From assembly GCA_947494695.1 (NCBI GenBank), contig CANLWB010000006.1, positions 305,335 through 369,334 on the forward strand: 64,000 nt of DNA. The letters run 5' to 3'. Below, piece after piece: positions 44,518 to 64,000 of the stretch. The notes under the pieces are model-generated. The model was not told where the DNA came from. It was given only the letters and a program-made list of their open reading frames with translations, and ran no database searches. Every line of letters begins with the position of its first letter. The stretch's first letter is position 1. The position numbers and the translations under genes are program-made. Origin of the DNA: an uncultured Flavobacteriaceae bacterium (GTDB taxonomy: Bacteria; Bacteroidota; Bacteroidia; Flavobacteriales; Flavobacteriaceae).

Positions 44518-45008
44518 AATATTCTACTATTAATTATTATTTAATTTTCATTAGTGTCCGATTAATTTTTCTGGATCCCTTACTAATCATATTTTTAGTG
44601 GGATAAGGGTTCATTTAAACAGAAGACAGCTTCCTTTTTTAAATAGTGCAATTTCTAATTTAAATGCTATTTTTTAGAACACGCCATTTTAAAAACTTCA
44701 GTTTGTCAGTTTGTTGTAAATTAGTCTTATTTCTTTTTTCTATAAGCGCAGCGGTCTTAAGTCTTTTAACCGGACAGTAGTGTTTAATTTTATAATAGTT
44801 GTCGATTCCTCTTTAGATCGTGAAAATGTTTTCTACAAAGGGGGGATCTTTTCCAGGAAAGAGAAATCAACAACCGGAAGTGTTAATTTGATAAGTACTT
44901 TGATGTTTAGAACTTAATTCGGGTTAAAAAAACGTCTTCTATAACACCTTATTCGTAATTCTCAAAAAAAACGATATACCCAAAATGGTAGATTTGTTTT
45001 CTTGAATA
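44518..45008. other. intergenic region between the two paralogues
   Basis: About 490 nt, AT-rich, without a credible gene or clear hairpin. It should contain the promoter of paralogue A. Confidence 0.4.
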
Positions 45009-46523: not shown

Positions 46524-46944
46524 GTGTATGTATTTTTATTTCTTCCTACTCTAATTGCTTTTCGGATTTCGCATATATTATTTTATACCATTTCTCATTT
46601 AAAATTACTCACTAAAAAGCAGTAATTTTAAACAAGAACTGGTATTACAAACTTATGTACTATAATGAGATCCGGTAAAAAAAATAGATTCTACGGTAAT
46701 TTTTAAAGTATGATTGGTGATTTAATACTTATAATTGGTCTTTGTTTCTTTAATAAGTAGTTATATAAGTCGTATTTGAATAAATTTTCAAAAACAAACA
46801 CCGAATTAAGCACATAAACCGCTATTTTTAGATACCGTGTTATGTCCTCATCCTTCTATATAGTCAATAAAACCGCTTAAAACATTCTTACCGCCACTCA
46901 TTATATTTTTTCAAATCTCCTTTCATCTATTCCTCATCTTTGAA
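46524..46944. other. intergenic region upstream of paralogue B
   Basis: About 420 nt, AT-rich, presumably holding divergent promoters for paralogue B (minus) and the small genes at 46945/47092 (plus). No clear hairpin or repeat seen. Confidence 0.4.
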
Positions 46945-47046
46945 ATGTCAAAAAGCCAAGTAGACAAGTTTAAAAATGTAATCCAAAGAGAAATAATCGA
47001 TGGAGTAGCTACTATCTTTTCTCTTGATTACAAAGGTGGAATCTGA
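46945..47046 (+). CDS. possible 33-residue small protein
   Basis: An ATG preceded by TCATCTTTG opens a frame MSKSQVDKFKNVIQREIIDG then VATIFSLDYKGGI and stop. It lies 45 nt upstream of the 83-residue gene on the same strand. The amino acid composition looks protein-like, but it is short and unsupported by homology. Confidence 0.3.
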   Translation: MSKSQVDKFKNVIQREIIDGVATIFSLDYKGGI

Positions 47047-47091
47047 AAAGCCTGTATTAAATAGAGTAAGAAATTTATAAACTTAACAATT

Positions 47092-47535: not shown

Positions 47536-48001
47536 CCCCCGCTACCGCTAAACTCCGTTTAGTGGCAACAAACAAGCTAAAAACTTATAATTCAAAACAT
47601 AAAAACTACTCTATCGAAAGTAGCTTTCTAGTATTTTTTACTTCTTACTCTTGACGACTTACAATTAACGGCACTCGTCAAAGACGTAGCGCTAGCAGTC
47701 ACTCATTGAGGTTCCAGCGTGAGACTAATATAAACCATTGTTATTTCATCACTTCTCTATTTTTCAGATAAGCTTACAACAATTTACCACCCTTTTACCT
47801 CATTTTCTTGTATTTATATAATAAGGTTAAGCTTTATAATAATTTACACTTTACAGATCTCCGTAATTAAAACTTAAACTTTTGATTGAAATTTGCATTT
47901 TAAACAAATTTTGAGGCTAAAACTTATGAGTAGCTTTTATAATAAAAACTGTGTGCTTTATAGTGGATATATCTGTACTGGTAAATAGATCTTATTGTTG
48001 T
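47536..48001 (+). repeat. four-copy cassette-linked repeat, copy A
   Basis: Begins CCCCCGCTACCGCTAA with a hairpin (CCGCTAAAC-TCC-GTTTAGTGG), a weak terminator-like stem (CTACTCTATCGAAAGTAG), then a ~225-nt imperfect palindrome from ACAACAATTTACC (47776) to ...ATTGTTG (48000). It carries a ~125-nt insertion (about 47641-47765) that the other copies lack. Ends at the 5' boundary of the DUF2130-type cassette. Confidence 0.8.
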
Positions 48002-48023
48002 GGTGCATTAAAACTAACCAAAT

Positions 48024-49574
48024 ATGAACGAAATAATTTGCCCTAATTGCAGTAAAGCGTTTAAAGTTGATGAAGCTGGGTTTGCTGATATACTTAAACA
48101 AGTTCGTGACCATCAATTTGATGAAGAACTAAATGCTAGGTTAAATCTTGCAGAAAAAGAAAAAGAGAATGCTATTAAACTTGCAGAGGCAAATATCAAG
48201 AATTCATTACAAGAACAATTAGCTAAGAAAGATAAAGAACTAACAGAATTAAAAGCTCAAAGTGATTCTGAACTTGCAGAAAAATTGGCGAAAAAAGAAT
48301 CTGAAATTTTTGAAATAAAATCAAAAATTGAAAAAGCAGAATCTGAAAAACAATTAGCTGTATCACAAGCTATAAAAGAGATTGAAAAAGAAAGAGATAA
48401 GCTCATTAATGATTTAAAAACTAAAGATATTGAGAAAGTTAATGCGATTGAGTTAGTTGAAGCAAACATTAAAAACACATTTCAAAAAGAACTTTCCGAA
48501 AAAGATAAAGAATTAACACAATTAAAAGCTCAAAGTGAATTTGAGATTGCAAATAAATTAGCGAATAAAGAAATTGAGATTTCTGAAATGAAATCAAAAA
48601 TTGAAAAAGCAGAATCTGAAAAACAATTAGCTGTATCGGAAGCGACTAGAAAAATAGAAAAGGAACGTGATGATTATGCTAATGATTTAAAAATTAAAGA
48701 AACTGAAAAAGAGTTACTTGAAAAATCAATTAAAGAACAGTTTACAGTCAAACTAACAACAAAAGATGAAACTATAAAAATGAAGGATGACGAAATTGCT
48801 CGTTTAAAAGACTTCAAACAAAAATTGTCAACAAAAATGGTTGGTGAAAGCTTGGAACAGCATTGTGAATCAGAATTTAACAGAATCAGGATGACTGCAT
48901 TTCCAAATGCTTTTTTTGGAAAAGACAATGACGCTAGTTCTGGTACTAAAGGTGATTTTATATTTAGGGAATCTGATGCTTCTGGAAATAAAATCATTTC
49001 TATTATGTTCGAAATGAAAAACGAAAATGACACAACTTCTACCAAAAAGAAAAATGAAGACTTTTTTTCTAAATTAGATAGAGACAGAACAACTAAAAAC
49101 TGTGAATATGCAGTTCTTGTTTCATTACTAGAATCTGAAAGTGAATTTTACAACACAGGTATTGTTGATGTTTCGTATCATTACCCAAAGATGTATGTAG
49201 TTAGACCTCAATTCTTTTTGCCAATAATTTCATTTTTAAGAAATGCAGCTTTAAATTCTATGAAATACAAAGCTGAATTGAATTTAATAAGAAACCAAAA
49301 TGTGGATATTACTAATTTTGAGGAAAAAATGAATTCATTTAAAGAAGGTTTTGCTAGAAATTACGATTTAGCAAGCCGTAAATTCAAAACAGCAATAGAT
49401 GAAATTGACAAAACAATAACTCACCTTCAAAAAACTAAAGATGCCCTACTTTCCTCAGAAAACAATTTAAGATTAGCAAATAACAAAGCGGATGACTTAA
49501 CAATTAAAAAATTAACATATAATAATCCTACTATGAAAGCTAAATTTAATGACCTAAATGAAGACAGTGAATAA
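48024..49574 (+). CDS. DUF2130-type protein: zinc-ribbon start, coiled coil, nuclease-like domain
   Basis: 516 residues. The N-terminus [12 protein letters not shown] has a CPxC zinc-ribbon half. Residues about 30-260 are a charged coiled coil that contains a 91-residue internal duplication ([19 protein letters not shown] and [19 protein letters not shown], 273 bp apart with 44 identical bases). Residues about 275-430 are the DUF2130 domain: [31 protein letters not shown] and [10 protein letters not shown], where Asp and Glu-x-Lys fit a PD-(D/E)XK nuclease core. The gene is cassette cargo: GTTGTGGTGC (47997) upstream and ACACCACAAC (49579) just after the stop. Likely DNA-processing or defence-related. 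Confidence 0.8.
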
Positions 49575-49578
49575 AACG

Positions 49579-49769
49579 ACACCACAACACTATATATAGC
49601 AAATTGGGCGATTAGTGCTTAATCCAAAAGCTGTTGTCTATTTGCAAAGTCGCCAAATCTTTTGATTTGGTATTAAAAAAGAAAAATTAAAACAAAATAA
49701 AAAGATTTGGCTTGTGGCTAAACCGAAAGTGATCGCTTATTTTCTGCCCAACTTGCCATATATTTAACA
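49579..49769. other. attC-like palindrome after the DUF2130-type cassette
   Basis: Left arm ACACCACAACACTATATATAGC onward (AAATTGGGCGATTAGTGCTT) pairs with AAGTGATCGCTTATTTTCTG, CCCAACTTGCCATATAT on the right; inner arms CGCCAAATCTTTT / AAAAGATTTGGCTTGTGG extend the fold. No gene lies inside. Confidence 0.65.
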
Positions 49770-49934
49770 TTAGGATTCATACAATACGATATACAAGACA
49801 CATCCCTATCTGATATGCTTCTATTATTCTTTTAATTATGCCTATTGAAAATCCATTCAGAAATTATACTTTTCACAGATTGTAAGGGCATTCTATTTAT
49901 CGTTTCAAAAATTATTTTCAAAAGTTTTTTAAAA

Positions 49935-49950
49935 GAATGAATATTCGTTT
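49935..49950. promoter_or_regulatory. candidate TetR operator, site 1
   Basis: GAATGAATATTCGTTT lies 12 nt upstream of the TetR start. Its complement AAACGAATATTCATTC matches AAACGAACATTCATTT at 50558 in 14 of 16 positions, and each has a dyad core. Confidence 0.6.
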
Positions 49951-49961
49951 ATATTTGTCAT

Positions 49962-50537
49962 GTGAGAATAAAAGATGATAAAAAGATTTCTAGAGTTAAA
50001 CAAGCATGTGTTGATTTAACATTTGAGCTTGGCGTTGAGGGAGTTTCTGCTGGTAAAGTATCAAAAATTTCAAATGTATCTGCATCTAGTATTTATGTGT
50101 ATTTTGAAAACATGCGTGATATGTTTCAAGCTATAAATGATGAAATTATTGAAGAATATTTTACTACTATATCAATATCTTTAAAAGAAGACATGATTAT
50201 TAAAGATAGATTTTTAGCATTATGGAACGCTGCCTACACATATTGTTCTAATAATTATAAAAGATTCATTTTTACAACGAGAATGATGAATTCGTGTATT
50301 GTAGATTACAATAATACTAAAGAAATTAAGCCTTATCATGAAGTGATAAACGAGTTTCTTATCTTGGGTTCGAATGAAAAAATAATAAAAAAATTAGATG
50401 TTGCTAGTTTTATATATATAGCTTTTTCACCGCTCTATGCCATGCTAAAATCAAATATAGAAACAGGTCATTTCAAATTAGACAATCAATCAAGGCAATT
50501 GCTTCAATTAGCTGCATGGGATGCAATCAAAATGTAA
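49962..50537 (+). CDS. TetR/AcrR family transcriptional regulator (GTG start)
   Basis: 191 residues starting with GTG at 49962 (an overlapping ATG at 49960 is followed at once by TGA). Residues 8-55 are a TetR HTH (VKQACVDLTFELGVEGVSAGKVSKISNVSASSIYVYFEN), the rest is the helical ligand-binding domain. It heads an operon with two oxidoreductases. A shared operator-like sequence before its own gene and before the next gene suggests autoregulation and repression of the oxidoreductases, released by an electrophile or quinone-type ligand. Confidence 0.88.
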   Translation: MRIKDDKKISRVKQACVDLTFELGVEGVSAGKVSKISNVSASSIYVYFENMRDMFQAINDEIIEEYFTTISISLKEDMIIKDRFLALWNAAYTYCSNNYKRFIFTTRMMNSCIVDYNNTKEIKPYHEVINEFLILGSNEKIIKKLDVASFIYIAFSPLYAMLKSNIETGHFKLDNQSRQLLQLAAWDAIKM

Positions 50538-50557
50538 AAAAATTTAACTTTTAAAAT

Positions 50558-50573
50558 AAACGAACATTCATTT
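50558..50573. promoter_or_regulatory. candidate TetR operator, site 2
   Basis: AAACGAACATTCATTT, inverse copy of site 1, located 13 nt upstream of the oxidoreductase start. Confidence 0.6.
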
Positions 50574-50585
50574 AATAATAAAAAT

Positions 50586-51152
50586 ATGAAAAATACATTA
50601 ATAATTAATGGTCACGAAAAATTTCCTTTGGCTAAAGGAGAGCTAAACAAATCATTTGTTTCTGAAGCTCAAAATACCTTGATCAACATAGGGCACAATG
50701 TCAAACTCATTGAGATTGATATTACATATGATTTAGATCAAGTTGTAAAAGACATTTTTTGGGCAGATAATATAATTTATCAAACTCCTGTTTATTGGTT
50801 TAACCTTCCAGGGGCATTTAAAAAATTTATTGATTCCGTATTCAATCATGGTTTATTGCAATTTATAAACATGGATAGTAATACAGAATACGGAAGTGCG
50901 GGACTTTTAACGGAAAAAAAATATATGTTATCTACTACTTGGAATGCTCCCAAAAGTACTTTTAATAACAAAAATGGTTACCTCTTGAAAGATGGTACTA
51001 TTGATGATGTTTTTTTACCCTTCCACTTATCAAATAAATATATAGGAATGTCGAAACTACCAAGCTTTGCCACCTATGATATTTACCATAATCCAACCAT
51101 AGAGGCCGATCTTAAAAATTTCAAAAATCATTTAAAAACATATTTAAAGTAA
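50586..51152 (+). CDS. NAD(P)H-dependent oxidoreductase, MdaB/flavodoxin-like
   Basis: 188 residues. Flavodoxin-like fold with an N-terminal TLIINGHEKFPLAKGELNKS (phosphate-binding region), DIFWADNIIYQTPVYWFNLPGAFKKFIDSVF (the conserved MdaB/YwrO-type core) and MLSTTWNAP. It would reduce quinones with NAD(P)H using FAD or FMN. Second gene of the TetR operon, 48 nt after it; the next gene follows after 6 nt. Confidence 0.88.
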   Translation: MKNTLIINGHEKFPLAKGELNKSFVSEAQNTLINIGHNVKLIEIDITYDLDQVVKDIFWADNIIYQTPVYWFNLPGAFKKFIDSVFNHGLLQFINMDSNTEYGSAGLLTEKKYMLSTTWNAPKSTFNNKNGYLLKDGTIDDVFLPFHLSNKYIGMSKLPSFATYDIYHNPTIEADLKNFKNHLKTYLK

Positions 51153-51158
51153 TTTATT

Positions 51159-52166
51159 ATGAAAAGTATAATCCTCGAAGAATTCGGCAATACAGAAGTC
51201 TTAAAAATAAGCACTAATACCAAAATTCCGTCTCTCAATAAAAATCAAATATTAGTAGAAAACTATTCCGCAGCTATTAACCCTCACGACCTATATTTAA
51301 GGGCTGGATACTTATCCCCTATTTTAGGTGAGAATTTCCCAATCACACCTGGTTTAGACATTGCCGGTAAAGTTATAGCTGTTGGAGAAAATGTTAATAA
51401 ATTCAAAATTGGAGATAACGTTTATGGCATGATGGATGCTAATCCAGAATTTTCTCAATCAGGTTTTGCACAGACTGGAGCATATGCCGAGTATATTGTA
51501 ACTAGAGAAGATACACTATCTATAATACCAGAAAATTTAACATTTGATGAGGCTGCCTCAATTCCGTTGGTAGGTTTAACGGCTTACCAAGCACTTATAA
51601 AAAAAGTAAAAGCAAAAAAAGGACAGAAGCTATTAATAAACGGAGCTTCGGGAGGTGTAGGTAGTATCGCAATACAAATTGCAAATCAAATTCAGTTGGA
51701 AACCACTGCGGTTTGTCACTCTACAAAAAATGATTTTGTTAGTTCTCTTAAACCAATGTCAATTTTACATTATGATAAAGAAGACTTTACGGCATCGAAA
51801 ATGAAATTTGACATTATTTTTGATGTTGTAGGAAATAAAAGCTTTGAACTTTGCGAACAAAATCTTTCTGAAAATGGAATCTATATTTCTAATGTACCCA
51901 CAGAAAGTACGTTTAAAGCTTATCAAAACCCATCACAAGAAGAAAAGTTTGGGTTTAATTCGAAAAATATGTACAACTGGGTAATTCCATTAGGAGAAGA
52001 TTTAGATAAAATATCTGAACTAATTAGCAAAGGAATTATAAAGCCTCTTGTAAATAAAGTATTCAATCTTGAAGACGTAACAGAAGCTCATAACTATGCG
52101 GAAAGCCGTATAGCAACTGGTAAAATTGTTCTTTCCATCAAAAAAGACAACATTAATTTCAACTAA
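51159..52166 (+). CDS. NADP-dependent zinc-type-alcohol-dehydrogenase-like quinone oxidoreductase
   Basis: 335 residues, MDR superfamily without the zinc ligands. GroES-like N-terminal half (YSAAINPHDLYLRAGYL, FPITPGLDIAGKVIAVGENV), nucleotide-binding motif INGASGGVGSIAIQIANQ, and a C-terminal VFNLEDVTEAHNYAESRIATGKIVL. Probably reduces quinones or enones (QOR family). Third gene of the TetR-controlled unit. GTATGAAATCTTAAC starts 6 nt after its stop and is the inverse of the tag at the 5' edge of the unit (49770). Confidence 0.9.
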   Translation: MKSIILEEFGNTEVLKISTNTKIPSLNKNQILVENYSAAINPHDLYLRAGYLSPILGENFPITPGLDIAGKVIAVGENVNKFKIGDNVYGMMDANPEFSQSGFAQTGAYAEYIVTREDTLSIIPENLTFDEAASIPLVGLTAYQALIKKVKAKKGQKLLINGASGGVGSIAIQIANQIQLETTAVCHSTKNDFVSSLKPMSILHYDKEDFTASKMKFDIIFDVVGNKSFELCEQNLSENGIYISNVPTESTFKAYQNPSQEEKFGFNSKNMYNWVIPLGEDLDKISELISKGIIKPLVNKVFNLEDVTEAHNYAESRIATGKIVLSIKKDNINFN

Positions 52167-52171
52167 TTCAA

Positions 52172-52361
52172 AGTATGAAATCTTAACAATGTATATAAAA
52201 AATAGGGCGTTTGTGCTTAACCTAAAGTTTTGTGAATATTAATAAAGTCCGCTAAATATAAAATTTGGCATTTATAGAAGAAATAAATTTATATTTAGCT
52301 AAGTAATAAATCGAAATGAAAGTGCTTATCACCTGCCCTACTTTTCATATACGAACCATTG
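52172..52361. other. attC-like palindrome after the TetR operon
   Basis: TTAACAATGTATATAAAAAA, TAGGGCG, TTTGTGCTT on the left pairs with AAGTGCTTATCACCTGCCCT, ACTTTTCATATACGAACCATTG on the right. The right arm ends exactly where repeat copy B begins. Confidence 0.65.
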
Positions 52362-52703
52362 CCCCCCTACCGCTAATTTTGCAATTAGTTGCGGTAAACA
52401 GGCTAAAAACCTATAATTCCAAAACACAAAAGCTACTCCATCGAAAGTAGCTTTTTAATATTTTTTAGATAAGCATACAACAATTCACCACCCTTTTACC
52501 TCATTTTATTGTATTTATATAATAAGGTTGAGCTTTATAATAATTTACACTTTACAGATCTCCGTAATTAAAACTTAAACTTTTATTTTGAAATTTGCGT
52601 TTTAAACGAATTTTGAGGCTAAAACTTATGAGTAGCTTTTATAATAAAAACTGTTTGCTTTATAGTGGATGTATCTATACTGGTAAATATATTTCATTGT
52701 TGT
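52362..52703 (+). repeat. four-copy cassette-linked repeat, copy B
   Basis: Hairpin CGCTAATT-TTGC-AATTAGTTGCG, terminator stem AAAGCTACT-CCATCGA-AAGTAGCTTTTT, then the large palindrome from ACAACAATTCACC to ATTGTTG. No insertion. Ends at the 5' tag GTTGTAGGGC of the cupin cassette. Confidence 0.8.
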
Positions 52704-52840
52704 AGGGCATTAAAACTACTCGTACGTATTAAAAAATGTAACGTTAGCAATAATTGATAAACCACGAATTGAATCAAAAAAAATAATTCCTCGTTAGAAG
52801 GGAATGTTTATAACGGAAAAAAATAAAACGAAAGAAAGTA

Positions 52841-53221
52841 ATGGAAAAAAAGTATAGTTACAATCAATTGATGAATATTAAATATGACCATCATGAAGTG
52901 GTTGATGTTTCTGAGATAGTTAAAACATGCACAGATAAATGGTTTAATCAATCGCTTACAAAAGTTAATGATAGTGTTGTTCGTATTGGAATAGTTGAAG
53001 GCGAATATCATTGGCATAAACATGACGATGACGATGAGTTCTTTTTTGTTTTGAGTGGCAAACTAATAATTGAATTGGAAGATAAAACAATTGAGTTAAA
53101 CCCTAATCAGGGAACGACAATTACAAAAGGGATAATGCATAGACCAATAGCACCTGAAAAAACAGTAATGCTGATGGTTGAAACAGCATCAATTGACCCA
53201 ATTGGGGTAGACGAAATATAA
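52841..53221 (+). CDS. cupin domain protein (cassette cargo)
   Basis: 126 residues. Cupin motif 1 is GEYHWHKHDDDDEFFFVLSG (His, His, Glu) and motif 2 is NQGTTITKGIMHRPIA (His). It is probably a single-barrel metal-binding protein; ligand unknown. It is the cleanest cassette in the window: GTTGTAGGGC at 52699-52708 on its left and GCCCTACAAC at 53223-53232 on its right, a perfect 10-bp inverse match starting 1 nt after the stop. Confidence 0.85.
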   Translation: MEKKYSYNQLMNIKYDHHEVVDVSEIVKTCTDKWFNQSLTKVNDSVVRIGIVEGEYHWHKHDDDDEFFFVLSGKLIIELEDKTIELNPNQGTTITKGIMHRPIAPEKTVMLMVETASIDPIGVDEI

Positions 53222-53222
53222 C

Positions 53223-53350
53223 GCCCTACAACAATAAATATACGTAATGCGGGAAGATTCGGTTAATTTGAACATTGAATCAATTAATAAAAACTGTAGC
53301 GGTATGATAGTGAAGTGCCTTTAAATCCTGCACTACGAATATTCGAGCCG
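53223..53350. other. attC-like palindrome after the cupin cassette
   Basis: GCCCTACAACAATAAATATA, CGTAATGCGGG on the left pairs with CCTGCACTACGAATATTCGA, GCCG on the right. About 128 nt, ending at G53350. Confidence 0.6.
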
Positions 53351-53374
53351 TTAGGCAACATTAAAAAAGACTCT

Positions 53375-54403
53375 GTGAATTCAATAAAAGATTTAATTTA
53401 TTTCGATTATGACAAGGCTAAGTCTCTTAGCAGTCAACTAAGTGGAGGACTGATTAATGAAATAACAAAAGCCATAGAAAACGAAGGTGGATTAAATTCT
53501 GATATTGGCTTTGACATAAAATTATTGAAAGGAAAAATTGGAGGTTCTGATAAAGAACGTTCCATTCGTACTGAAAGAATTGAATTGTATCACGAATTAT
53601 TAAATGAAGTTGAAGACAATTTAACAAAGAAGAAAATTTTAAAAGACCTCAATACATCATTTGGACAAGATTCAAAGACGTTTAATGATTTTATGGAAAT
53701 TATACCTGATTTCACGTTTGTAAAAGCAAGTGGTTGGAGCACATTTGAAGACTTTGAAAGATTCAAAAAAATAATGTCCAACTTTAATGAAGTCCAAAGA
53801 CTTATTTATGCTTCTCAGCTTGAAAATAATCCTGAAATAATCGCTCAAAAAAAAGAAATTAACGATTTAAAAAAAGGACTACAGAAATCTAATAATAATA
53901 AGTAACTCGCCAAACTAAAAGCATATGAAAAGAAATTTGACCGAACAATAGAAGAGTTATCAGATGCAGAATTATTGGATGAGACATTTGTAGAAAGGAT
54001 TAAAACATTCTTGGATACTTTTACACCCAATCGATTAAATTTCAGACTAGCTCCTTTTGATGATTTTCCAGACTTTCAGATATTAGCCAACCTAAAAAGT
54101 AAATATTTAGTAAATGGAGATTTTGAAAATGTTATATATACTTATGGCACTAGACCAAATATTAAACTATCTGTGTTTGGAGTTATAACATCCTGTCCTC
54201 AGAAAGACGATAAAAGAGTTAATTTAAATGATGAATATTTAGCATATTCTGATGATGAACTTTCTGAAGTAGAGGTATATGATAAAGTATTTAGAAATGT
54301 ATTTTCATCATTCGAGGCTTTTGAGAAATTCTTTTTTGTTCCAAGTTATCCGAAAATTGCAATTGATCCAATAGGAATATATAGGGAAATATCATATGAA
54401 TAA
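53375..54403 (+). pseudogene. DUF6414-like gene interrupted by an in-frame TAA
   Basis: The frame is open from 53315 to 53902 and, after a single TAA at 53903-53905, continues in the same frame to 54403. Start: GTG at 53375 or ATT at 53360 is preferred over the GTG at 53315, because 53315 lies inside the preceding attC-like palindrome. The protein begins IKDLIYFDYDKAKSLSSQLSGG, a DUF6414-like opening, and continues with a helical part ending QKSNNNK, stop, then LAKLKAYEKKFDRTIEELSD and a C-terminal domain (NFRLAPFDDFPDFQILANLKSKYL, KLSVFGVITSCPQKDD). The stop could be a nonsense mutation, a programmed event, or a sequencing error. Cassette tags GTTAGGCAA (53350) and TTGCCTAAC (54415) match perfectly. 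Confidence 0.65.
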
Positions 54404-54414
54404 AATAAAAACGA

Positions 54415-54489
54415 TTGCCTAACACTATATATAGCAAATAGGGTGATTAGTATTTAATCCAAAGGTTATTGCCTATTTGCAAAGACCGT
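54415..54489. other. attC-like site after the DUF6414-like cassette
   Basis: Starts with TTGCCTAAC, containing the canonical integron core GCCTAAC, then ACTATATATAGCAAATAGGG and a weaker inverted part (CTATTTGCAAAGACC). Shortest palindrome of the set. Confidence 0.55.
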
Positions 54490-54517
54490 TATAAGCCATT
54501 TGAATAAAACGAACCGA

Positions 54518-55036
54518 ATGAAAAAATCATTTTTAGCCATAATTCTACTTTCAATTTTATGCGCTTGTCAAACCGAGAAAAAAATTGATGAAAAAAAAGA
54601 ATATTTACGTTGGGTCGGAGATATAGCGCAAAATGACCAAATTGACAAACCAGATTTTAAAGTTTGTAATGGAAACGACAAAATTCTTCAATATTTCAAT
54701 TTAGGAAAAGGCCCAGTTTATAATGAAGAAAAATCTGAAATTTTAAATATCTTTAAATCACATTACAAACCAATATATGACAAAAAAGAAAACGGACTAA
54801 TCAGAATACGTTTCATTGTAAACTGTGAGGGAAAAGCAGGTAGATTTAGAGTTTTGCAATCAGATTATGATTATCAAGAAAAAGAATTTGATGGAAAAAT
54901 CGTCTCTCAACTTTTAAACATAACAAAGGAAATTGGAAATTGGAAAATTTTTCACAAAAGTGAAATTCCTGTTGATTATTATATGTATCTGATTTTCAAA
55001 ATTAAAGACGGACAATTAACTGAAATCTTGCCTTAA
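54518..55036 (+). CDS. lipoprotein with TonB-C-like domain
   Basis: 172 residues from ATG 54518 (MKKSFLAIILLSILCACQT, lipobox LCAC); an upstream in-frame TTG at 54500 is less likely. The C-terminal part (about 90-170) with GLIRIRFIVNCEGKAGRFRVLQS and YYMYLIFKIKDG resembles the TonB C-terminal beta-alpha-beta fold of small envelope proteins. Its stop codon overlaps the next start (TAATG), so the two genes form a coupled pair within one cassette. Confidence 0.65.
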   Translation: MKKSFLAIILLSILCACQTEKKIDEKKEYLRWVGDIAQNDQIDKPDFKVCNGNDKILQYFNLGKGPVYNEEKSEILNIFKSHYKPIYDKKENGLIRIRFIVNCEGKAGRFRVLQSDYDYQEKEFDGKIVSQLLNITKEIGNWKIFHKSEIPVDYYMYLIFKIKDGQLTEILP

Positions 55037-55887
55037 TGAGACACTTTAGCTTTTTAATATTACTACTTATCTCTTTAAATTCTTTTGCCCAACCGAATTG
55101 CGAAGCCTATAAATATTATGGAGATACTTTAAAATACCAAGCTTGTAAAAAAGCAATGGAAATCAAAGGTCATTACCAATTCAGTAAAGAATACCAAACC
55201 GTTTTAGACGAATCAATTGAAATTGACCCAACATTTGATTATGCTTATTGGGCGAAATCCATTGCTTATCTAAAAAGTGGAGATTTTGTGACTTGGAAAA
55301 AATTAATTGATAAATCAGTTGAGTTAAAACCAAAAGAACATTTAGGATACAGAGGTTGGTGTCGTTATCAGTTCTTCAGAGACTACAAAGGTGCAATCAA
55401 GGATATTGAAAAGTTAGATAATTTGGTAGACTATGATATTGGACAATCCCAAAATGGAACATATCATCTAAACATTGCTAAAGGCTTATGTTATAGAGCA
55501 ATTGGAGAAAAAGAAAAAGCAATAGCAATTTTAGAAAAACAAATTAAACTAAACGAATTAGAGGAATTTATTGGTGCTAATGATTATCTGCATCTTGGAG
55601 TTTTATATTTAGAAACTGAAAAATTTGATAAAGCAATTGAGGTTTTTAAGAAACAATCTGAATACAATGAATTAGCTGAAAATCAATATTATTTAGCTTT
55701 GACTTACAAGAAACTGAACAATATGAACGAATACAAATCTTGTTTAGAAAAAGCAAAAGAACTTTACGTTGGAGGAAGAAAAATGTCAGACCCATACTCA
55801 AATCCAATGGACAAAATATATTTAGACAACATTGAAAACGAAATAAAAACGGCTTACAACATTGGTAATCGTTACACAAGGCTCTAA
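55036..55887 (+). CDS. secreted TPR protein
   Basis: 283 residues with a signal peptide (FSFLILLLISLNSFAQ). Several tetratricopeptide repeats span residues 50-260 (e.g. AYWAKSIAYLKSGDFVTWKKLIDKSVELKP; YLHLGVLYLETEKFDKAIEVFKKQ). Likely a periplasmic scaffold working with the lipoprotein whose gene overlaps it by 1 nt. A terminator hairpin follows at 55908. Confidence 0.75.
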   Translation: MRHFSFLILLLISLNSFAQPNCEAYKYYGDTLKYQACKKAMEIKGHYQFSKEYQTVLDESIEIDPTFDYAYWAKSIAYLKSGDFVTWKKLIDKSVELKPKEHLGYRGWCRYQFFRDYKGAIKDIEKLDNLVDYDIGQSQNGTYHLNIAKGLCYRAIGEKEKAIAILEKQIKLNELEEFIGANDYLHLGVLYLETEKFDKAIEVFKKQSEYNELAENQYYLALTYKKLNNMNEYKSCLEKAKELYVGGRKMSDPYSNPMDKIYLDNIENEIKTAYNIGNRYTRL

Positions 55888-55907
55888 AAAACATAACATA
55901 TCACTCA

Positions 55908-55940
55908 AAAGCTTCTTTTTAAGGGCTTTTGTTTTTTAGG
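55908..55940 (+). terminator. terminator after the TPR gene
   Basis: CAAAAGC-TTCTTTTTAAG-GGCTTTTG followed by TTTTTT. Confidence 0.6.
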
Positions 55941-55991
55941 TATATCCTTTTCTATTAAATATTCAAGGCTGCTAAAAGTCTTATTTGAAGT

Positions 55992-56153
55992 CTAATTACG
56001 GCTTTTAACCGCAAAAGCAAATGATCTTTTTGCTTTGGCAGCACTTTTCACCGTTTTTGCAATAAATTTCAGGTACTTCTTAAGATTATAGGCCATGGCT
56101 GATAGATACATAACCTTGTTGGCTTGCTCTATCAATGGTATTGATTTTCCTAA
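55992..56153 (-). mobile_element. transposase remnant (C-terminal end, IS1182/IS4-like)
   Basis: On the minus strand the sequence reads GKSIPLIEQANKVMYLSAMA, YNLKKYLKFIAKTVKS and on to a TAG at 55992. 'AMAYNLKKYLKF' is the characteristic C-terminal motif of IS1182-type DDE transposases. Only about 53 codons remain; the rest is replaced by repeat copy C, which starts at about 56155. Confidence 0.6.
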
Positions 56154-56154
56154 G

Positions 56155-56514
56155 CCCCGCTACCGCTAATTTCATAATTAGCAGCGGCAAACAAGCTAAA
56201 AGCTTATAATTACAAAATACAAAAGCTACTCCATTGAAAGTAGCTTTTTAATATTTTTTGGATAAGCCTACAACAATTTACCACCCTTTTACCTCATTTT
56301 CTTGTATTTATATAATAAGCAGACTAATACAATGAGAGATTAAGTTTAATAATAATTTACATATTGAGGATCTCCGTAATTAAAACCTAAACTTTTGTTT
56401 GAAATTTGCGTTTTAAACAAATTTTGAGGCTAAAACTTATAAGTAGCTTTTATAATAAAAACTGTCTGCTTTATAGTGGATATATCATTACTGGTAAATA
56501 TATCTTATTGTTGT
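56155..56514 (+). repeat. four-copy cassette-linked repeat, copy C
   Basis: Same modules as copies B and D: hairpin CCGCTAATTT-CATA-ATTAGCAGCGG, terminator stem AAAGCTACTCCATTGAAAGTAG, large palindrome from ACAACAATTTACC (56270) to ATTGTTGT. A short stretch (about 56320-56365) differs from the other copies. Confidence 0.8.
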
Positions 56515-56538
56515 GCAACGTAAACCTAAAAAAGAAAT

Positions 56539-58770
56539 ATGATTATAGATGAAAAAGCAGTTCGAATAGTTCTTAATGATATGCCAGATGGTTTTATATT
56601 TGAACATTTTTCTAAAAAAATATTTTCTATCGTCTTTGGTGATGAGTTTATACCTGTTGGAGGCTCAGGTGATCAAGGTATAGACGGTTTTCAACAAGTT
56701 TATACCAGAAAAGACCATGCTAAGTTAATTTATCAAATTTCAACGGAAATTGTTCATTGGAAACAAGAGAAGAGTAAAATTACAAATACTCAAGATAAGT
56801 TAGTTGCGAATAATATTAATGTAGATAAACTCAACTATATAACAAATAGAAAAGTTGAAAGAAAGGACACTATACAAGATAACTTTTACAAAAAATATAA
56901 AATTGCTTTAACTATTTATGACATGGAATGGTTTGCTTCTAATATTCTTGCAGACACAAGAGTTTCAGATGTTTATACTAGTTTCGTGCAAACTCATGTC
57001 CATGAATATCAACAACCAACAAAATTAATAGAAGTCGCTGAATTCAGTTCTGACCCTCGATTATTTGTTTTTTTAACACAGCATGTAGATGAAGGAGGAA
57101 GTGAAGAAATAGAAGATAGTGTACTAGATGGTTTAATTCTATTTGCTCTTGAAGGGACTTCATCCGATAGTATGATATTCAAATCAGAAATTGAAATAAA
57201 AAATCGAATAAGAGAATTAACTAAATTTAGCTTACCAAATATTGATTCAAGAATAACCAATAGATTAATAAGTTTATCTGCAAAAGACAAACATAAGGTA
57301 AAACATCACACTAAAGAAAATGTATTCTGTTTACCATATTCTACAATCATTGAATTAGCGCAAAGAGATATAAAGAACTCTCAATTAAGAAAAGATTTTG
57401 AAAATGAATGTAAATATCTTCTTAACACTAATTTAAAATTACTCGGGACAAAAGCGGTTAATATTTTTGAAATATTTGAAGAAGTGATTCATAGTGTATA
57501 CTACAGGCAAGGATTAGAATTTTCTGACTTCATTATAAATGGTATTAATAAGGAGGTAGTAGACGACACATTACGTACAATCGTAGCTAGAGTAGTCGAT
57601 GATTCTACAAAAAAAATCCAAAATAAATCAAACATTAAAACTGCTCTTTTAATGTCAATTAGGGAAGTAGCATATAATGGAACTGAAGTACAAAGAGAAT
57701 ATTTAAGAAAATTATCAAAAACATATATGATGGTTTTTTTAACACAAAATGACCCCAAAATATCTATGTTTTTCAAGACATTAGCTAATAAACTAACCGT
57801 TTTTGTTGGAACTTCAATTATAATACCAGCTCTCTCAGAATACTATTTAAGCAACGAAAATAAAAGATTTTGGAACCTCTTAAAAGGTGCTAAAACATCA
57901 GGTGTCACTTTAAAAGTTAACGAATTTATTATTGACGAATTAGTTAGTCATTTTAAGGGTATAACGAATACTTATAAATCTCTTTATAAAAATATTGAAC
58001 AAGAATATTTAGAAGATGATATTGCCTTACTTTATATTGAAGAAATATTAATAAGGGCATATTTTTATGCCAAAAGAAGAAAGCATATAAAAAGTTTTGA
58101 TGCTTTTTTAATGAAATTTATTGATCCCGATTTAACTAGTATAAAAGAAGATATTATACTTTTTTTAAAAGAAGAATTTGAAATTGAATATGTTTCAACT
58201 GCTTCTCAAAAAATTGTATTAGACGAACAAGAAGTTAACTTATTGATTAATCACTTAAAAGATAAAAAGAAAAATAATATTAAAAAGACGGAAGCTGATG
58301 CTAAACTGATACTTTACGTCTATAAAATTCGAGAACAAAATAATGAAACTGATAGTTCTGGAATTTTTGGATATAAAACTTGGTGGTTATCTCAAGACAT
58401 AAATACATTTAAATCTGTTCAAGAAGTATTTGATGACAAATATCAAGTAAGTTGTTATATGAGATCTGATTTCATGTATAAATATATATCCTTATCACCT
58501 CACAAAAAAGATGTAGATGAATTATATAAGAAATGTTTCCCAAGTTTAATGGGTGTCAATCTAAGTTATCATATTCCAAAAGGAGTAAGCGCATATGTAA
58601 GTCAAAAAATCATTGAACACAAAGACACTAACCCATTGATTATAAAGAGAATATTAAAAAAATTAACATCAAAACTTATGACTTCAATAGATTCAATTTC
58701 TAACAAAGAATTCAAAACATATTTTGATGATGAAATGGAAAAAGTATCAAAAGAACATATCATAAATTAA
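56539..58770 (+). CDS. Mrr-like nuclease fused to a PIN-like domain; candidate defence protein
   Basis: 743 residues. N-terminal domain about 1-130 with FEHFSKKIFSIVFGDEFIPVGGSGDQGIDGFQ and LIYQIST; the GxGDxGIDG loop (Asp45, Asp49) and following strand fit the Mrr/PD-(D/E)XK restriction-endonuclease fold, with the usual ExK replaced by QxS. Around residues 415-480 FVGTSIIIPALSEYY and GVTLKVNEFIIDEL look like the first half of a PIN-like nuclease, with Gly in place of the first Asp. The rest is helical. Cytoplasmic. The combination suggests a defence or toxin-like role, but no partner gene is in the cassette. Tags GTTGTGCAACGTA / TACGCAACACAAC match 10 of 13. Confidence 0.65.
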   Translation: MIIDEKAVRIVLNDMPDGFIFEHFSKKIFSIVFGDEFIPVGGSGDQGIDGFQQVYTRKDHAKLIYQISTEIVHWKQEKSKITNTQDKLVANNINVDKLNYITNRKVERKDTIQDNFYKKYKIALTIYDMEWFASNILADTRVSDVYTSFVQTHVHEYQQPTKLIEVAEFSSDPRLFVFLTQHVDEGGSEEIEDSVLDGLILFALEGTSSDSMIFKSEIEIKNRIRELTKFSLPNIDSRITNRLISLSAKDKHKVKHHTKENVFCLPYSTIIELAQRDIKNSQLRKDFENECKYLLNTNLKLLGTKAVNIFEIFEEVIHSVYYRQGLEFSDFIINGINKEVVDDTLRTIVARVVDDSTKKIQNKSNIKTALLMSIREVAYNGTEVQREYLRKLSKTYMMVFLTQNDPKISMFFKTLANKLTVFVGTSIIIPALSEYYLSNENKRFWNLLKGAKTSGVTLKVNEFIIDELVSHFKGITNTYKSLYKNIEQEYLEDDIALLYIEEILIRAYFYAKRRKHIKSFDAFLMKFIDPDLTSIKEDIILFLKEEFEIEYVSTASQKIVLDEQEVNLLINHLKDKKKNNIKKTEADAKLILYVYKIREQNNETDSSGIFGYKTWWLSQDINTFKSVQEVFDDKYQVSCYMRSDFMYKYISLSPHKKDVDELYKKCFPSLMGVNLSYHIPKGVSAYVSQKIIEHKDTNPLIIKRILKKLTSKLMTSIDSISNKEFKTYFDDEMEKVSKEHIIN

Positions 58771-58822
58771 ATACGCAACACAACAATGAACTAAGCTAAA
58801 ATCCAAGCTTTTTTACATTTAT

Positions 58823-59010
58823 TCACCTACATGATAAACCAGATTTAGCTATTGCAAATGCCTGTTTGATTAGCTTATTGCACACCACTATAAGTGCTAG
58901 TTTTTTACTCTTTCCCTTTGCTACGATTCTATCAAATAATGCTTTACATTGTGGGTTATGGATACAAGCTGTAAAACTGCACATAAATAGATGATTGCTT
59001 ACCAACCCAT
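58823..59010 (-). mobile_element. transposase remnant (C-terminal end, IS110-like)
   Basis: On the minus strand up to TGA at 58823 the sequence reads SNHLFMCSFTACIHNPQCKA, LFDRIVAKGKSKKLALIVVC, NKLIKQAFAIAKSG. The HNP..K.L.DRI..KGK.KKLA pattern is the C-terminal region of IS110-family transposases. About 60 codons remain, and the upstream part is replaced by repeat copy D starting at 59011. Confidence 0.65.
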
Positions 59011-59351
59011 CCCCCGCTACCGCTAATTTCATAATTAGTGGCGGCAAACAAGCTAAAAACCTATAATTACAAAATACCAAAGCTACTCCATCGATAGTAG
59101 CTTTTTAATATTTTTTAGATAGGCTTACAACAATTTACCACCCTTTTACCTCATTTTCTTGTATTTATATAATAAGGTTAAACTTTATAATAATTTACAC
59201 TTTACAGATCTCCGTAATTAAAACTTAAACTTTTGATTGAAATTTGCGTTTTAAACAAATTTTGACGCTAAAACTTATGAGCAGCTTTTATAATAAAAAC
59301 TGTTTGATTTATAGTGGATATATCTGTACTGGTAAATATATTTCATTTTTG
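59011..59351 (+). repeat. four-copy cassette-linked repeat, copy D
   Basis: Hairpin CCGCTAATTT-CATA-ATTAGTGGCGG, terminator stem, large palindrome from ACAACAATTTACC (59128) to ATTTTTGT. Ends 10 nt before the next gene's ATG, at the tag TTTGTAAGCA. Confidence 0.8.
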
Positions 59352-59360
59352 TAAGCAATT

Positions 59361-60038
59361 ATGAGAAACATCTGTAACATAATTTTAATTTCAATATTCG
59401 CAGTTGGATTAGCTAATGCTCAAGACAATCTGGAGACTGTCGAATACAACGAATTATTGAAATTAAAAGTTGATGAAAACCGATTTACATTTGGTTGGTT
59501 AGACAATGTTTTCAGCGGAATTCCTTGTTTCAGAGATTATACAAAATCGGATATTCAAACTGAACTTGTTGACCCAAAAACGAACTCGATTATCTATACT
59601 TCATCAGAACCAAAAAGAAACGGATTGATAATCGCTACTAACAACATAGAAGTTGACAAAAAAAACAAGAAATTTCAAATTAGCGGAAAAATAACTGGTG
59701 GTTGGGAAAGTGTAATTCCAACTGAATTTAAAATTTACATTGGACATCGGAACGACACGATTTCTAACACTACTCTTTCACCAAACTTACACGGAGACAT
59801 ATATTTTAATGGAAAAAAAGTGGACAGTACAATTGTCATTGATACAGTTCCTGCATTTTATATGAAAGATTTACAAAAATTTGAGGTTTATCGGGGAAAG
59901 GAATATTTAGAAAACTCAAAATACAAGGAAATGCTTTTTGAAATTAATGGAATAATAGACGAAAAGAGCATTTTAGTTTTTGGACTTTCGTCACGCTTTA
60001 CCGAGATATTTGAAATTGGAAAATTATTAACCGAATAA
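59361..60038 (+). CDS. secreted protein with carboxypeptidase-regulatory-like part (cassette cargo)
   Basis: 225 residues with a signal peptide (MRNICNIILISIFAVGLANAQ). Residues about 65-175 look like a beta-sandwich, and the DIYFNGKKVDSTIVIDTVPAFYMKDLQKFEVYRGKEYL region resembles the TonB-dependent-receptor-plug-like elements of small Bacteroidetes secreted proteins. Not assignable to a family. Tags TTTGTAAGCA (59348) / TGCTTACAAC (60045) match 9 of 10. The gene has almost no 5' leader in the cassette, only 10 nt. Confidence 0.65.
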   Translation: MRNICNIILISIFAVGLANAQDNLETVEYNELLKLKVDENRFTFGWLDNVFSGIPCFRDYTKSDIQTELVDPKTNSIIYTSSEPKRNGLIIATNNIEVDKKNKKFQISGKITGGWESVIPTEFKIYIGHRNDTISNTTLSPNLHGDIYFNGKKVDSTIVIDTVPAFYMKDLQKFEVYRGKEYLENSKYKEMLFEINGIIDEKSILVFGLSSRFTEIFEIGKLLTE

Positions 60039-60044
60039 AAAAAC

Positions 60045-60174
60045 TGCTTACAACAATGGCTCTAAGTAATTGCTTGAAGATGGTAAGTGTCAATCGGAAT
60101 ATTCAGAGAATATTCCTCACTCCGGGTCTTTTTGCCAACTTAAGTACTTTAAGCAACTACCCATAGCCGAACCG
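60045..60174. other. attC-like palindrome after the 59361 cassette
   Basis: TGCTTACAACAATGGCTCTA, AGTAATTGCTT pairs with AAGCAACTACCCATAGCCGA, ACCGTTGTA; inner arms CGGAATATTC/GAATATTCC. About 130 nt; the clearest small attC-like fold in the window. Confidence 0.7.
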
Positions 60175-60197
60175 TTGTAGCAAATTGAAAAAAACGA

Positions 60198-61601
60198 ATG
60201 AACTCATTTAAACGAATTTTTAAATCATATATCTTAGAGGGTGTTTTTACACCAACAACTGAAGCTAAACTTACATATGTTACAAGAGAAACTATTGAAA
60301 ATGAATTAGAGAAAAATGTAAAAATACCTGGACAACAAATTGTTATTTACGGACATTCAGGCAGTGGTAAAACAACTCTATTAAGAAATAAGTTAAAAGG
60401 TCTAAAACAATCATACATTAAAACTCATTGTGAAAAAAATACAACCTTTGAAAGTATACTGCTTCAGGCATTTGATTCTTTAAATGTATTTTACAAGAAT
60501 CAAAAAACCGAATCCAATTCTAATCAAATTTCTTCGGAGTTGAAAGCTACATATTTAGATATTTCGGCATCTATTAAAGCTTCTAATACAATTACTACTT
60601 CTTCTAAATTGGAGAGAGTTGTTCCTGTTCAATTAACTCCTTTAAGGCTTTCTCAGTTTCTCGGAGCTATTAATTGCGTTTGGATTATTGAAGATTTTCA
60701 TAAAGTTTCAGATACTGAGAAACAAAGAATAGCAGATGTGATAAAAATATTTATTGATACTGCCAATGATTTTAAAAAAGTAAAAATAATATGTATTGGT
60801 GCAGTCGGCACCGCTAGAGAGCTTTTACAACTTGATGATAATTTGTACAATCGCATTAATGAACTGCCTATTCCATTAATGACTGATGTTGAATTAGAAG
60901 AAATTGTGAAAAAAGGATTTAACTTAATGAACTTAACTATAGAACAGTCGTTAATAGATAAGATAGTTTACTATTCACATAACTTGGGCTCTGTATGTCA
61001 CCAAATTTGTTACGACTTGTGTTTTTACAATAACATAAAAAAATCAAAATTCTTTAAACAAAAAATAACTGAAGATGATTTTAGAAAAGCAATTGATTCT
61101 TTCGTAAGAAAAAATTCAGACACTTATAATAAGATCTATGACAAAATTGTAAGCTTAGACCTTGGTTGGCACATTTTAAATACTTTTGAATCAGTTGAAA
61201 AAGAGTTTGTATCAGTAGGAGAGCTGGAAATTAGAATTCCAAATCATAAAAAAATAGAAAGAGAAGATTTTCAGGAGTTTTTATCACTTCTTTCTTCACC
61301 TGAATTTAACGAAATAATACGTTTTGATAGAACTTCACAAAAATACTCTATTTCTACACCATTTTTCAGAGCATTTCTTAAAATGAAAATGGCATTAGAA
61401 CATATCGAACAGAAAGAAGCTAAGAAAAGAAAAAGGAACAAAAGGAATAAGAAATATGCTCTTAAAGAACAATCTTCTATGGTGATGGATGAAGCATTCT
61501 TTGAAAATTATTATCAATTTTTAGATTCTTATTTAATAAGAACAACTAAATTGAATGAAAAAATTGAAGAACTTGAAAAGTTAAAAAGAAACGAAAAATA
61601 A
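60198..61601 (+). CDS. AAA/STAND-type P-loop ATPase (cassette cargo)
   Basis: 467 residues. Walker A GHSGSGKT (52-59) after IPGQQIVIY, Walker B CVWIIEDF (Glu165-Asp166), a Cdc6/Orc1-like sensor region (KVKIICIGAVGTARELLQLDDNL), and the LYNRINELPIPLMTDVELEEIVKKG segment typical of MoxR/STAND ATPases. The C-terminus is basic (KKRKRNKRNKK) and coiled. It probably acts in DNA- or peptide-linked defence, but no effector domain is visible. Cassette tags GTTGTAGCA (60174) / TGCTACAAC (61604) match perfectly. Confidence 0.75.
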   Translation: MNSFKRIFKSYILEGVFTPTTEAKLTYVTRETIENELEKNVKIPGQQIVIYGHSGSGKTTLLRNKLKGLKQSYIKTHCEKNTTFESILLQAFDSLNVFYKNQKTESNSNQISSELKATYLDISASIKASNTITTSSKLERVVPVQLTPLRLSQFLGAINCVWIIEDFHKVSDTEKQRIADVIKIFIDTANDFKKVKIICIGAVGTARELLQLDDNLYNRINELPIPLMTDVELEEIVKKGFNLMNLTIEQSLIDKIVYYSHNLGSVCHQICYDLCFYNNIKKSKFFKQKITEDDFRKAIDSFVRKNSDTYNKIYDKIVSLDLGWHILNTFESVEKEFVSVGELEIRIPNHKKIEREDFQEFLSLLSSPEFNEIIRFDRTSQKYSISTPFFRAFLKMKMALEHIEQKEAKKRKRNKRNKKYALKEQSSMVMDEAFFENYYQFLDSYLIRTTKLNEKIEELEKLKRNEK

Positions 61602-61766
61602 CGTGCTACAACAAGGTATCCTATGAAAAGCACTAACCTAGTTCTCCAAAGTTATTATTTATTTTTCATTTATCTCATAATGATGGTTTTGCACTCCAAC
61701 ATACGCTACAAATAGTCCACTATACCTGTGTGTGCCTGTGATACTATAATCCTATCTTATCAAAAT

Positions 61767-63344: not shown

Positions 63345-64000
63345 CAGGTTCGTCGCGGGTGCCATATTTCGATATGACATTTAATTTTCGAACGCGTGAG
63401 ACATTGCATAACAGTGGTAGATGATAGTATAGCCTGATGTGAGGTCTCAATCATACCTCGTTTCGACTCCGCTCAACGACCACATTTCGACATGACTAAC
63501 CAAACACGAGTCATTTCGACGATAGGAGAAATCGCATAATAGTGTATGGACGATAGCATAGCCTGATGTGAGGTCTCACTGCGTTCGACATGACCAACCA
63601 AGCGCGAGTCATTTCGACGATAGGAGAAATCGCATAATAGTGGTAGATAATAACATAACTTCATGTGATGTCTCACTGCGTTCGACATGACTAACCAAGC
63701 ACGAGTCATTTCGACGATAGGAGAAATCGCATAATAGTGTATGGACGATAGCATAGCCTGATGTGATGTCTCACTGCGTTCGACATGACTAACCCAAGCA
63801 CCAGTCCTTTCGACGATAGGAGACATCGCATAATAGTGGTAGATAATAACATAACTTCATGCGATGTCTCACTGCGTTCGACATGACCAACCAAGCACGA
63901 GTCATTTCGAACGCGTGAGAAATCGCATAACAGTGGTAGACGATAGCATAGCCTGATGTGATGTCTCACTGCGTTCGACATGACTAACCAAACACGAGTC
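63345..64000. repeat. tandem repeat array, 97-98 bp unit, 196-bp higher-order period
   Basis: The element CACGAGTCATTTCGACGATA and GGAGAAATCGCATAATAGTG recurs at about 63508, 63606, 63703, 63802, 63899 and 63996, spaced 97-99 bp. Units alternate between type A (GGACGATAGCATAGCCTGATGTG) and type B (AGATAATAACATAACTTCATGTG), giving a dimer period of about 196 bp. A degenerate start lies near 63345. The array continues past the window end. It lacks CRISPR-like spacers. Confidence 0.85.

Follow-up and report, generated by a model that had tools for sequence, protein, structure and literature searches.

Organization of the cassette array

The window analyzed here, a stretch of 64,000 nucleotides from an uncultured Flavobacteriaceae bacterium (assembly GCA_947494695.1, contig CANLWB010000006.1, positions 305,335 to 369,334), carries toward its right end a series of genes and operons arranged like the gene cassettes of an integron. 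We consider it quite likely that this is an integron-like array whose cassettes were captured and shuffled in trans by a tyrosine recombinase encoded on another contig of the same genome and lacking the I2 patch of integron integrases (IntI). Contigs of this genome are denoted by C-numbers, integrase loci by L-numbers, and compared genomes by G-numbers. The initial annotation had proposed eight consecutive units, each with a private tag: the stretch following G|TT at the 5' edge recurs inverted right before the ...AAC that opens the 3' hairpin of the same unit. On reading 47.0-64.0 kb with every tag checked, the tags were found at the proposed positions or a few bases off. Over nine bases from the TT, with the 5' tag compared by hand to the reverse complement of the 3' tag, units A, B, C, D, E, F, G, and H matched at 8, 7, 9, 8, 4, 6, 9, and 8 positions, respectively. 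A private inverted tag (6-9 of 9) was present in seven of the eight units, and that of unit E, already called weak, was left unsupported (4/9). The 3' tag of a unit matched the 5' tag of the next at just 0-4 of seven positions, in agreement with the proposal that the 5' edge and the 3' inverse core of a unit form one recombination site. The sum of own-tag matches over 13 units (eight from the window and five from two other arrays) was 68 compared with at most 60 in 200,000 reshuffles, a sum lowered because two of the five non-window units were mis-phased.

The covariance-model search for attC sites suggested with the initial annotation was made with our own model R1, built from 40 attC sites, and gave five attC-like sites in the window, one of them short and at E 0.024, and 38 in the whole genome at E ≤ 0.001. 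The five window sites all lie on the + strand, and those at 53226-53356 and 60048-60180 were training-set sites. The palindromes of 70-235 nt described between the units were real, but their sizes mixed the five attC-like sites with four repeats of approximately 350 bp, termed platform repeats here. Sites of up to 235 nt were ruled out as attC, the long ones being the platform repeats.

All units are on the + strand. Cassette A (47998-49769) consists of one gene (48024-49574; DUF2130, Pfam PF09903, 1e-90) and an attC at 49579-49775 (R1 match 49582-49775, 50.2 bits) with the right core CATT in place of CGTT. This attC was 94.6% identical to an attC in the Aquimarina locus L080, and 92, 90, and 88% identical to stretches in L061, L096 (Flavivirga), and the C11 array of the same genome; the gene part of the cassette was unmatched in all four places. 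A 273-bp direct tandem duplication, 75% identical, lies inside the DUF2130 gene (48141-48686). Cassette B (49770-52361) holds a three-gene operon with Pfam matches to the TetR family (49962-50537), a flavodoxin-like fold (50586-51152), and zinc-type alcohol dehydrogenase (51159-52166), followed by an attC at 52181-52364 (47.0 bits; right core CATTG; precise right end uncertain). Cassette C (52700-53350) carries a cupin gene (52841-53221; Cupin_2) with the first training-set attC (68 bits), and its gene had a 78% match in just one of 120 family genomes and a 79% match over part of its length in another. Cassette D (53351-54488) contains open frames ending at 53905 and 54403, neither with a PADLOC match, and a shortened attC (54417-54494; 21.5 bits, E 0.024) whose first 77 nt shared 83% identity with the cassette A attC.

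Unit E (54489-55900) includes genes at 54518-55036, which had no Pfam match, and 55036-55887 (TPR); it had no R1 match, and its 3' end was unsupported as a cassette end. Cassette F (56511-58790) encodes a protein of 743 amino acids (56539-58770) with no Pfam match, and ends in the apparent left end of an interrupted attC, with no R1 match. Between cassettes, the stretches at 55900-56150 and 58800-59010 resembled transposase gene ends by eye, the former having counterparts of 95% identity in the C11 array and 89% in the C15 array. Cassette G (59349-60174) combines a gene for 225 amino acids (59361-60038; no Pfam match) with the second training-set attC (60048-60180; 70.3 bits). Cassette H (60175-61612) carries an AAA ATPase gene (60198-61601; Pfam AAA_22) with a PADLOC match to PDC-S59 (8.8e-26) and the left end of the last attC, the right end of which was not found. 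Given two attC with CATT cores, a third that is shortened, and two ends cut by other sequence, the array is probably old and partly decayed.

The four platform repeats precede cassettes A, C, F, and G, are 83-95% identical to the last copy, and end in attI-like sequences, all on the + strand. Copy 1 (47537-47997) is made up of modules at 47537-47640 and 47758-48001 with an insert between them, the first 83% and the second 95% identical to copy 4, and its crossover is at G47997|T47998. Copy 2 spans 52362-52699 (repeat to 52703; crossover G52699|T52700), copy 3 56155-56510 (repeat to 56514; G56510|T56511), and copy 4 59012-59348 (repeat to 59352; T59348|T59349). In the genome these repeats occurred in this array alone, plus a part of approximately 105 bp on C2, and in relatives they were matched by short pieces only. 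The approximately 240 bp upstream of each attI-like end were common to the four copies and among the fetched loci matched only the window array.

A tyrosine recombinase lacking I2

The array had been described as integrase-less, resembling the clusters of attC sites lacking integron integrases (CALIN), in which at least two attC sites lie with no integrase close by. The lack of an integrase stood for the window, where the integron-integrase model TIGR02249 had no match at E ≤ 0.001 and 47-62 kb gave no good match to the family integrase proteins (many run together as query). It did not extend to the genome, which carries an intact integrase gene at C13:3119-4243 (locus L015), adjoining its own attI-like site and cassettes. 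No TIGR02249 match exceeded the cut-off in the genome, and the best match below it was this reading frame. A search elsewhere in the genome for a tyrosine recombinase with an integron-integrase patch had been suggested with the initial annotation; a recombinase was found, without the patch. Its catalytic residues were present, and the additional domain specific to IntI (I2, patch III) was absent. The I2 patch of IntI1 comprises about 40 residues. The close integrase family has an N-terminal extension of approximately 100 residues, with no Pfam match to residues 1-100, and the C13 integrase scored 229 with NF040815 (recomb_XerA_Arch; curated cut-off 220). More distant integrases, of 37-48% identity, likewise lacked I2, and in all six loci with an integrase among eight fetched, a nearby tag matched an attC at 8-9 of 9 positions.

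Directly after the C13 gene lies the palindromic attI-like site TGGATATATATGTACTGGTACATATA..G|TT, and three cassettes whose tags match come next. On C8, what by eye is a broken integrase end precedes a site of this kind and a pair of cassettes, of which the second is truncated at the contig end. The end of platform copy 1, GGATATATCTGTACTGGTA.., is common to the site after the C13 integrase, one base apart, and of the ends of the four window repeats two match the C13 attI-like motif exactly and two with two mismatches. Since they share this motif, the window repeats are interpreted as attI-like platforms on which the intact integrase would work, if at all, in trans. The four attI-like repeats had been missed in the initial annotation of the window, and the more unusual features, the I2-less integrase and the G.T-marked attC stems described below, could not be seen from the window.

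attI-like sites and cassette chains in related genomes

A scan of named genomes gave at least 568 relatives. We retained 80 loci, which came from Aquimarina, Flavivirga, Tenacibaculum, Arenibacter, Maribacter, Winogradskyella, Algibacter, Psychroflexus, and others. As at C13, an integrase gene adjoins an attI-like site at the fetched loci: in most, a palindrome lies shortly after the integrase stop codon (centre mostly 21-34 nt past it) and is followed by ..TTG|TT or ..CG|TT. The best palindrome reached at least eight of nine pairs in 65 of 78 windows compared with about eight in letter shuffles, and among 57 distinct palindromes, each chosen as the best-paired stretch, 474 of 513 cells were paired compared with 178.7 with the right arms re-dealt. 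As the palindromes vary in sequence yet pair, they may form a hairpin or an inverted binding site that changes with the integrase.

The first tag after the integrase was assessed in the 57 of 80 loci with at least 1500 nt after the stop codon, and a crossover was called in 45. The tag recurred inverted within 3 kb exactly in 27 of these and with one mismatch allowed in 43, compared with 45 and 528 of 1350 comparisons with tags of other loci. Chaining from tag to hairpin to next tag, begun at 64 usable starts (58 of the 80 loci and six places in the window's own genome), yielded 153 attC at 47 starts compared with 2-5 with shuffled tags, the attC having R''/R' cores that match the 5' edge of their own cassette; in most cassettes, the first nine bases recur inverted at the left end of the attC. 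Lengths fell into classes near 64, 129, 167, and 191 nt common to other genera, and the attC are not unusually long as had been supposed. The longest reading frame followed the array direction in 130 of 147 cassettes. Several loci recur among 17 locus pairs in which the 60 nt left of G|TT were 88-100% identical and the right sides unrelated (21-39%); in 15 of the pairs the left 300 nt were 79-99% identical. Such pairs of platforms with different first cassettes are an indirect sign of attI x attC recombination. Sharing of the same cassette by two loci was seen in weak cases only, at 69% identity. The cargo was diverse, with none of the 25 Pfam families listed (of 41) recurring in a sample of 62 reading frames, taken as every second one of 123, and included some PADLOC matches (PsyrT, DpdF, ThsA, AbiZ, and candidates). 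Two candidates were set aside: locus L019, a chance match inside a gene, and a Persicobacter plasmid relative (L153, 5001-6300) with a 43% identical integrase, ..CAATTG|TT after it, and a 9-nt tag match, which was left uncounted for want of the AAC and of an attC.

Stem structure and strand asymmetry of the attC sites

A stem was called in 152 of the 153 chained sites, positions were counted in 106, and columns were aligned for 40 sites out of a size class of 61. The spacer after R'' was asymmetric, most often measuring 3 nt on its left side and 5-6 nt on its right (78/153), and the typical L stem comprised 6 bp, A.C, 4 bp, A.C, and 3 bp or more. In the 106 stems, 72 had two A/G positions, 20 more, and 14 fewer, and the A.C positions were spaced by 5 in 65 cases, 4 in 21, and 1 in 21. 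Columns 18/129 and 23/122 of the alignment were A.C in 33 and 39 of the 40 sites, respectively, whose stem cells comprised 530 Watson-Crick pairs; of the remaining cells, 95 were G.T when read in the bottom strand and 4 when read in the top strand, and 10 were of other kinds. Over the 152 stems, mismatches amounted to bottom-strand wobble in 301 cases, top-strand wobble in 18, and neither in 107; among 136 distinct stems, predicted energy favored the bottom strand in 128. A replicate used 80 of 87 model hits from eight loci outside model building, though found with the model: wobble was 151 to 6 in favor of the bottom strand (70 stems), which was predicted to be more stable in 77 of 80, and tags matched in 59 of 72 compared with 105 of 5112 cross pairs.

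Two to three extrahelical bases on the R''-L'' arm, as in canonical attC, were not consistently found. In silico, 108 of the 152 stems had no left-arm bulge; bulges occurred in the left arm of 44 and the right arm of 44, and 69 had none. The absence of a consistent extrahelical base is a majority statement because of these two groups of 44. According to PMC2727003, the first extrahelical base is absolutely conserved and essential for strand selectivity, and the canonical extrahelical G and T are 6-8 nt apart. In a small control, the L stems of two attC from class 1 cassettes were given 3 and 1 unpaired left-arm bases and zero right-arm ones by the same aligner.

Distribution among Bacteroidota genomes

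In the genome itself, R1 recovered 40 sites at E ≤ 0.1; the 38 at E ≤ 0.001 include three training sites and lie mostly in arrays at C15:88-118 kb, C11:198-218 kb, C28, C30, C13, C8, and C6, plus a few single places. Consecutive sites in four of these arrays had matching tags (at least 8/9) in 13 of 17 cases compared with 6 of 272 cross pairs. Among 60 relatives, attC-like sites (E ≤ 0.001) were found in 43. Of the 37 relatives belonging to the same family, 35 had such sites, with as many as 56 scored in a genome. The integrase (E ≤ 1e-60) was found in 30 of the 60, including 27 of the 37. Across 395 class genomes, 17 carried the closer integrase type (E ≤ 1e-110), and these represented seven family codes. 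Canonical IntI exceeded the cut-off in one, G200, which was none of the 17, and no att sites were recognized by eye in the flanks of its gene. Genome G025 has two dense attC arrays on its C1 contig, at 2215-2261 and 2728-2791 kb (approximately 46 and 63 kb, superintegron scale), the second adjoining an I2-less integrase gene at 2793685-2794731.

Beside the window array, two adjacent genes at 43096-46523 encode proteins that are 41% alike, and a comparison with 11 further genomes of the genus gave no match at E ≤ 1e-30 for the longer one. Two matches to the Rfam DUF805b RNA (RF02914) lie at 46543-46575 and 47033-47072; at att-type sites from the three sources tested, Rfam gave no match above gathering scores. 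Tandem repeats of approximately 120 bp by eye fill 63470-64000, where the end of the window is the end of contig C6.

Alternative explanations

Several observations weigh against an integron-like array served by the C13 recombinase. Boundaries, tags, site structure, integrase architecture, and their association were read from sequence, and recombination itself is inferred from these and not observed. The window array may be inactive, given its two CATT right cores, the failed unit E, and two interrupted ends; when sister genomes were compared for empty sites, the gene on the left flank of the window was unmatched in all 11, and the gene on its right flank was multicopy. The attI palindromes pair well because they were picked for pairing, ten had seven pairs and three had six, which is the chance level, and they could be an operator or terminator. 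Moreover, 17 of the 64 starts yielded no chain, the Persicobacter relative had no clear attC, and left- and right-arm bulges were equally frequent (44/152 each). Sites were also found in eight of ten same-family genomes without an integrase at E ≤ 1e-60, so that arrays may outlive their integrase or more diverged integrases may act, and two of the 27 integrase-positive genomes hold short fragments (G008, G029).

Arrays in genomes without a close copy of this integrase fit the alternative that these are ordinary integrons or CALIN left behind, or served in trans, by a canonical I2-bearing IntI, with the I2-less recombinase a bystander, and PMC9668308 describes archaeal integrons as mostly CALIN and CALIN as prevalent in bacteria. 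However, the genome has no TIGR02249 match over the cut-off, canonical IntI was found in one of the 395 class genomes compared with 17 for the I2-less type, without overlap, and the I2-less gene heads the array, the first tag matching the first attC exactly in 27 of 45 loci compared with 3% for other tags. The tag match extends to distant I2-less integrases (8-9 of 9 in 6/6 loci). A bystander role appears improbable. We regard as slightly less improbable, and still unlikely, that only the integrase is unusual and the attC stems are canonical, with extrahelical bases mis-scored as mismatches. The left-arm bulge in 44 of 152 stems and an A.C spacing (5 in 65, 4 in 21, 1 in 21) near the 6-8 nt given in PMC2727003 fit that explanation, but 106 of the 153 stems could be aligned without gaps at 11 or more identities in 15, 212 of 294 exceptions are A/G, and the two A.C columns are kept in 33 and 39 of 40 sites; the aligner also placed unpaired bases in the left arm alone (3 and 1) in its small class 1 control. 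Finally, the repeats might be terminators or mobile palindromes between genes, with tags produced by insertion duplication, as small repeated palindromic elements occur in the genus (the first 37-65 bp of the platform repeat) and the arrays contain other mobile-element-like remnants. The tags are inverted and private to each unit, and the size classes, strand uniformity, and integrase-headed order are integron traits, which renders this hardly credible.

Comparison with known systems and proposed mechanism

IntI integrons (class 1 and the Vibrio superintegrons) share with the system a tyrosine recombinase gene with an adjacent attI, tandem and mostly co-oriented cassettes in arrays that run to tens of sites, attC hairpins with R''/R' cores, a G|TT boundary, asymmetric spacers, a predicted bottom-strand preference, and the C-terminal PLD of the integrase. 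They differ in that the integrase here lacks I2 and its close family has the N-terminal extension, two bottom-strand G.T positions are present in most attC stems, where extrahelical bases are not consistent, most loci have a palindromic attI, and the integrase gene is co-directional with the array. Integron attI sites are termed non-palindromic in the title of a 1997 paper cited by PMC4792948. The window is CALIN-like in having several attC (five matches to the model built here) without a nearby integrase gene, whereas its four attI-like repeats set it apart from CALIN. The NF040815 score above the cut-off, the absence of I2, and XerA as the nearest solved fold recall the XerA/Xer recombinases; in contrast, this integrase is tied to attI and cassette arrays and lies in the tree apart from the three Xer-like proteins of its own genome. 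The I2 insertion is described as essential for integron function, and no I2-less member linked to cassette arrays appears in the integron-like tyrosine recombinase subgroup, within the part of PMC8138268 consulted. Bacteroidota are listed among integron-bearing phyla in PMC8618304, and the IntegronFinder 2.0 paper names one complete integron in Bacteroidetes proper, that of Salinibacter ruber M1 (PMC9024848). In line with the suggestion that this class is undescribed for Flavobacteriaceae, no report of integrons with I2-less integrases or of such Flavobacteriaceae arrays was found, by title or abstract start, among the matches listed in full-text searches of open-licence PMC, with preprints and most subscription papers outside their scope.

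In the proposed mechanism, the integrase would bind attC as a hairpin folded from its bottom strand, cut at G|TT, and join the attC to attI or another attC. The G.T positions, A.C mismatches in the top strand, would take over from extrahelical bases in signaling which strand is the right one, and the missing I2 and the missing extrahelical bases may belong together. The attI palindrome would be part of the site of the integrase, and the N-terminal extension (residues 1-100) may aid hairpin recognition. The four attI-like repeats of the window would be additional platforms in an array that is older, lacks an integrase, and has partly decayed. More tentatively, and leaning slightly against it, we suggest a Bacteroidota-wide class of gene capture through folded single-strand hairpins without I2 or extrahelical bases, marked by two bottom-strand G.T and an attI hairpin and representing a state before or beside I2. 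The system works like an integron, yet lacks a tested defining feature of the IntI family and is not filed as a member.

Gene capture may have begun without the I2 part. If true, a cassette system without I2 or consistent extrahelical bases would make the origin of I2 directly testable and would show how cassettes could exist before the domain that integrases of today need. With attC sites in 35 of 37 same-family genomes, searches that demand IntI may miss a large mobile gene pool of the Bacteroidota.

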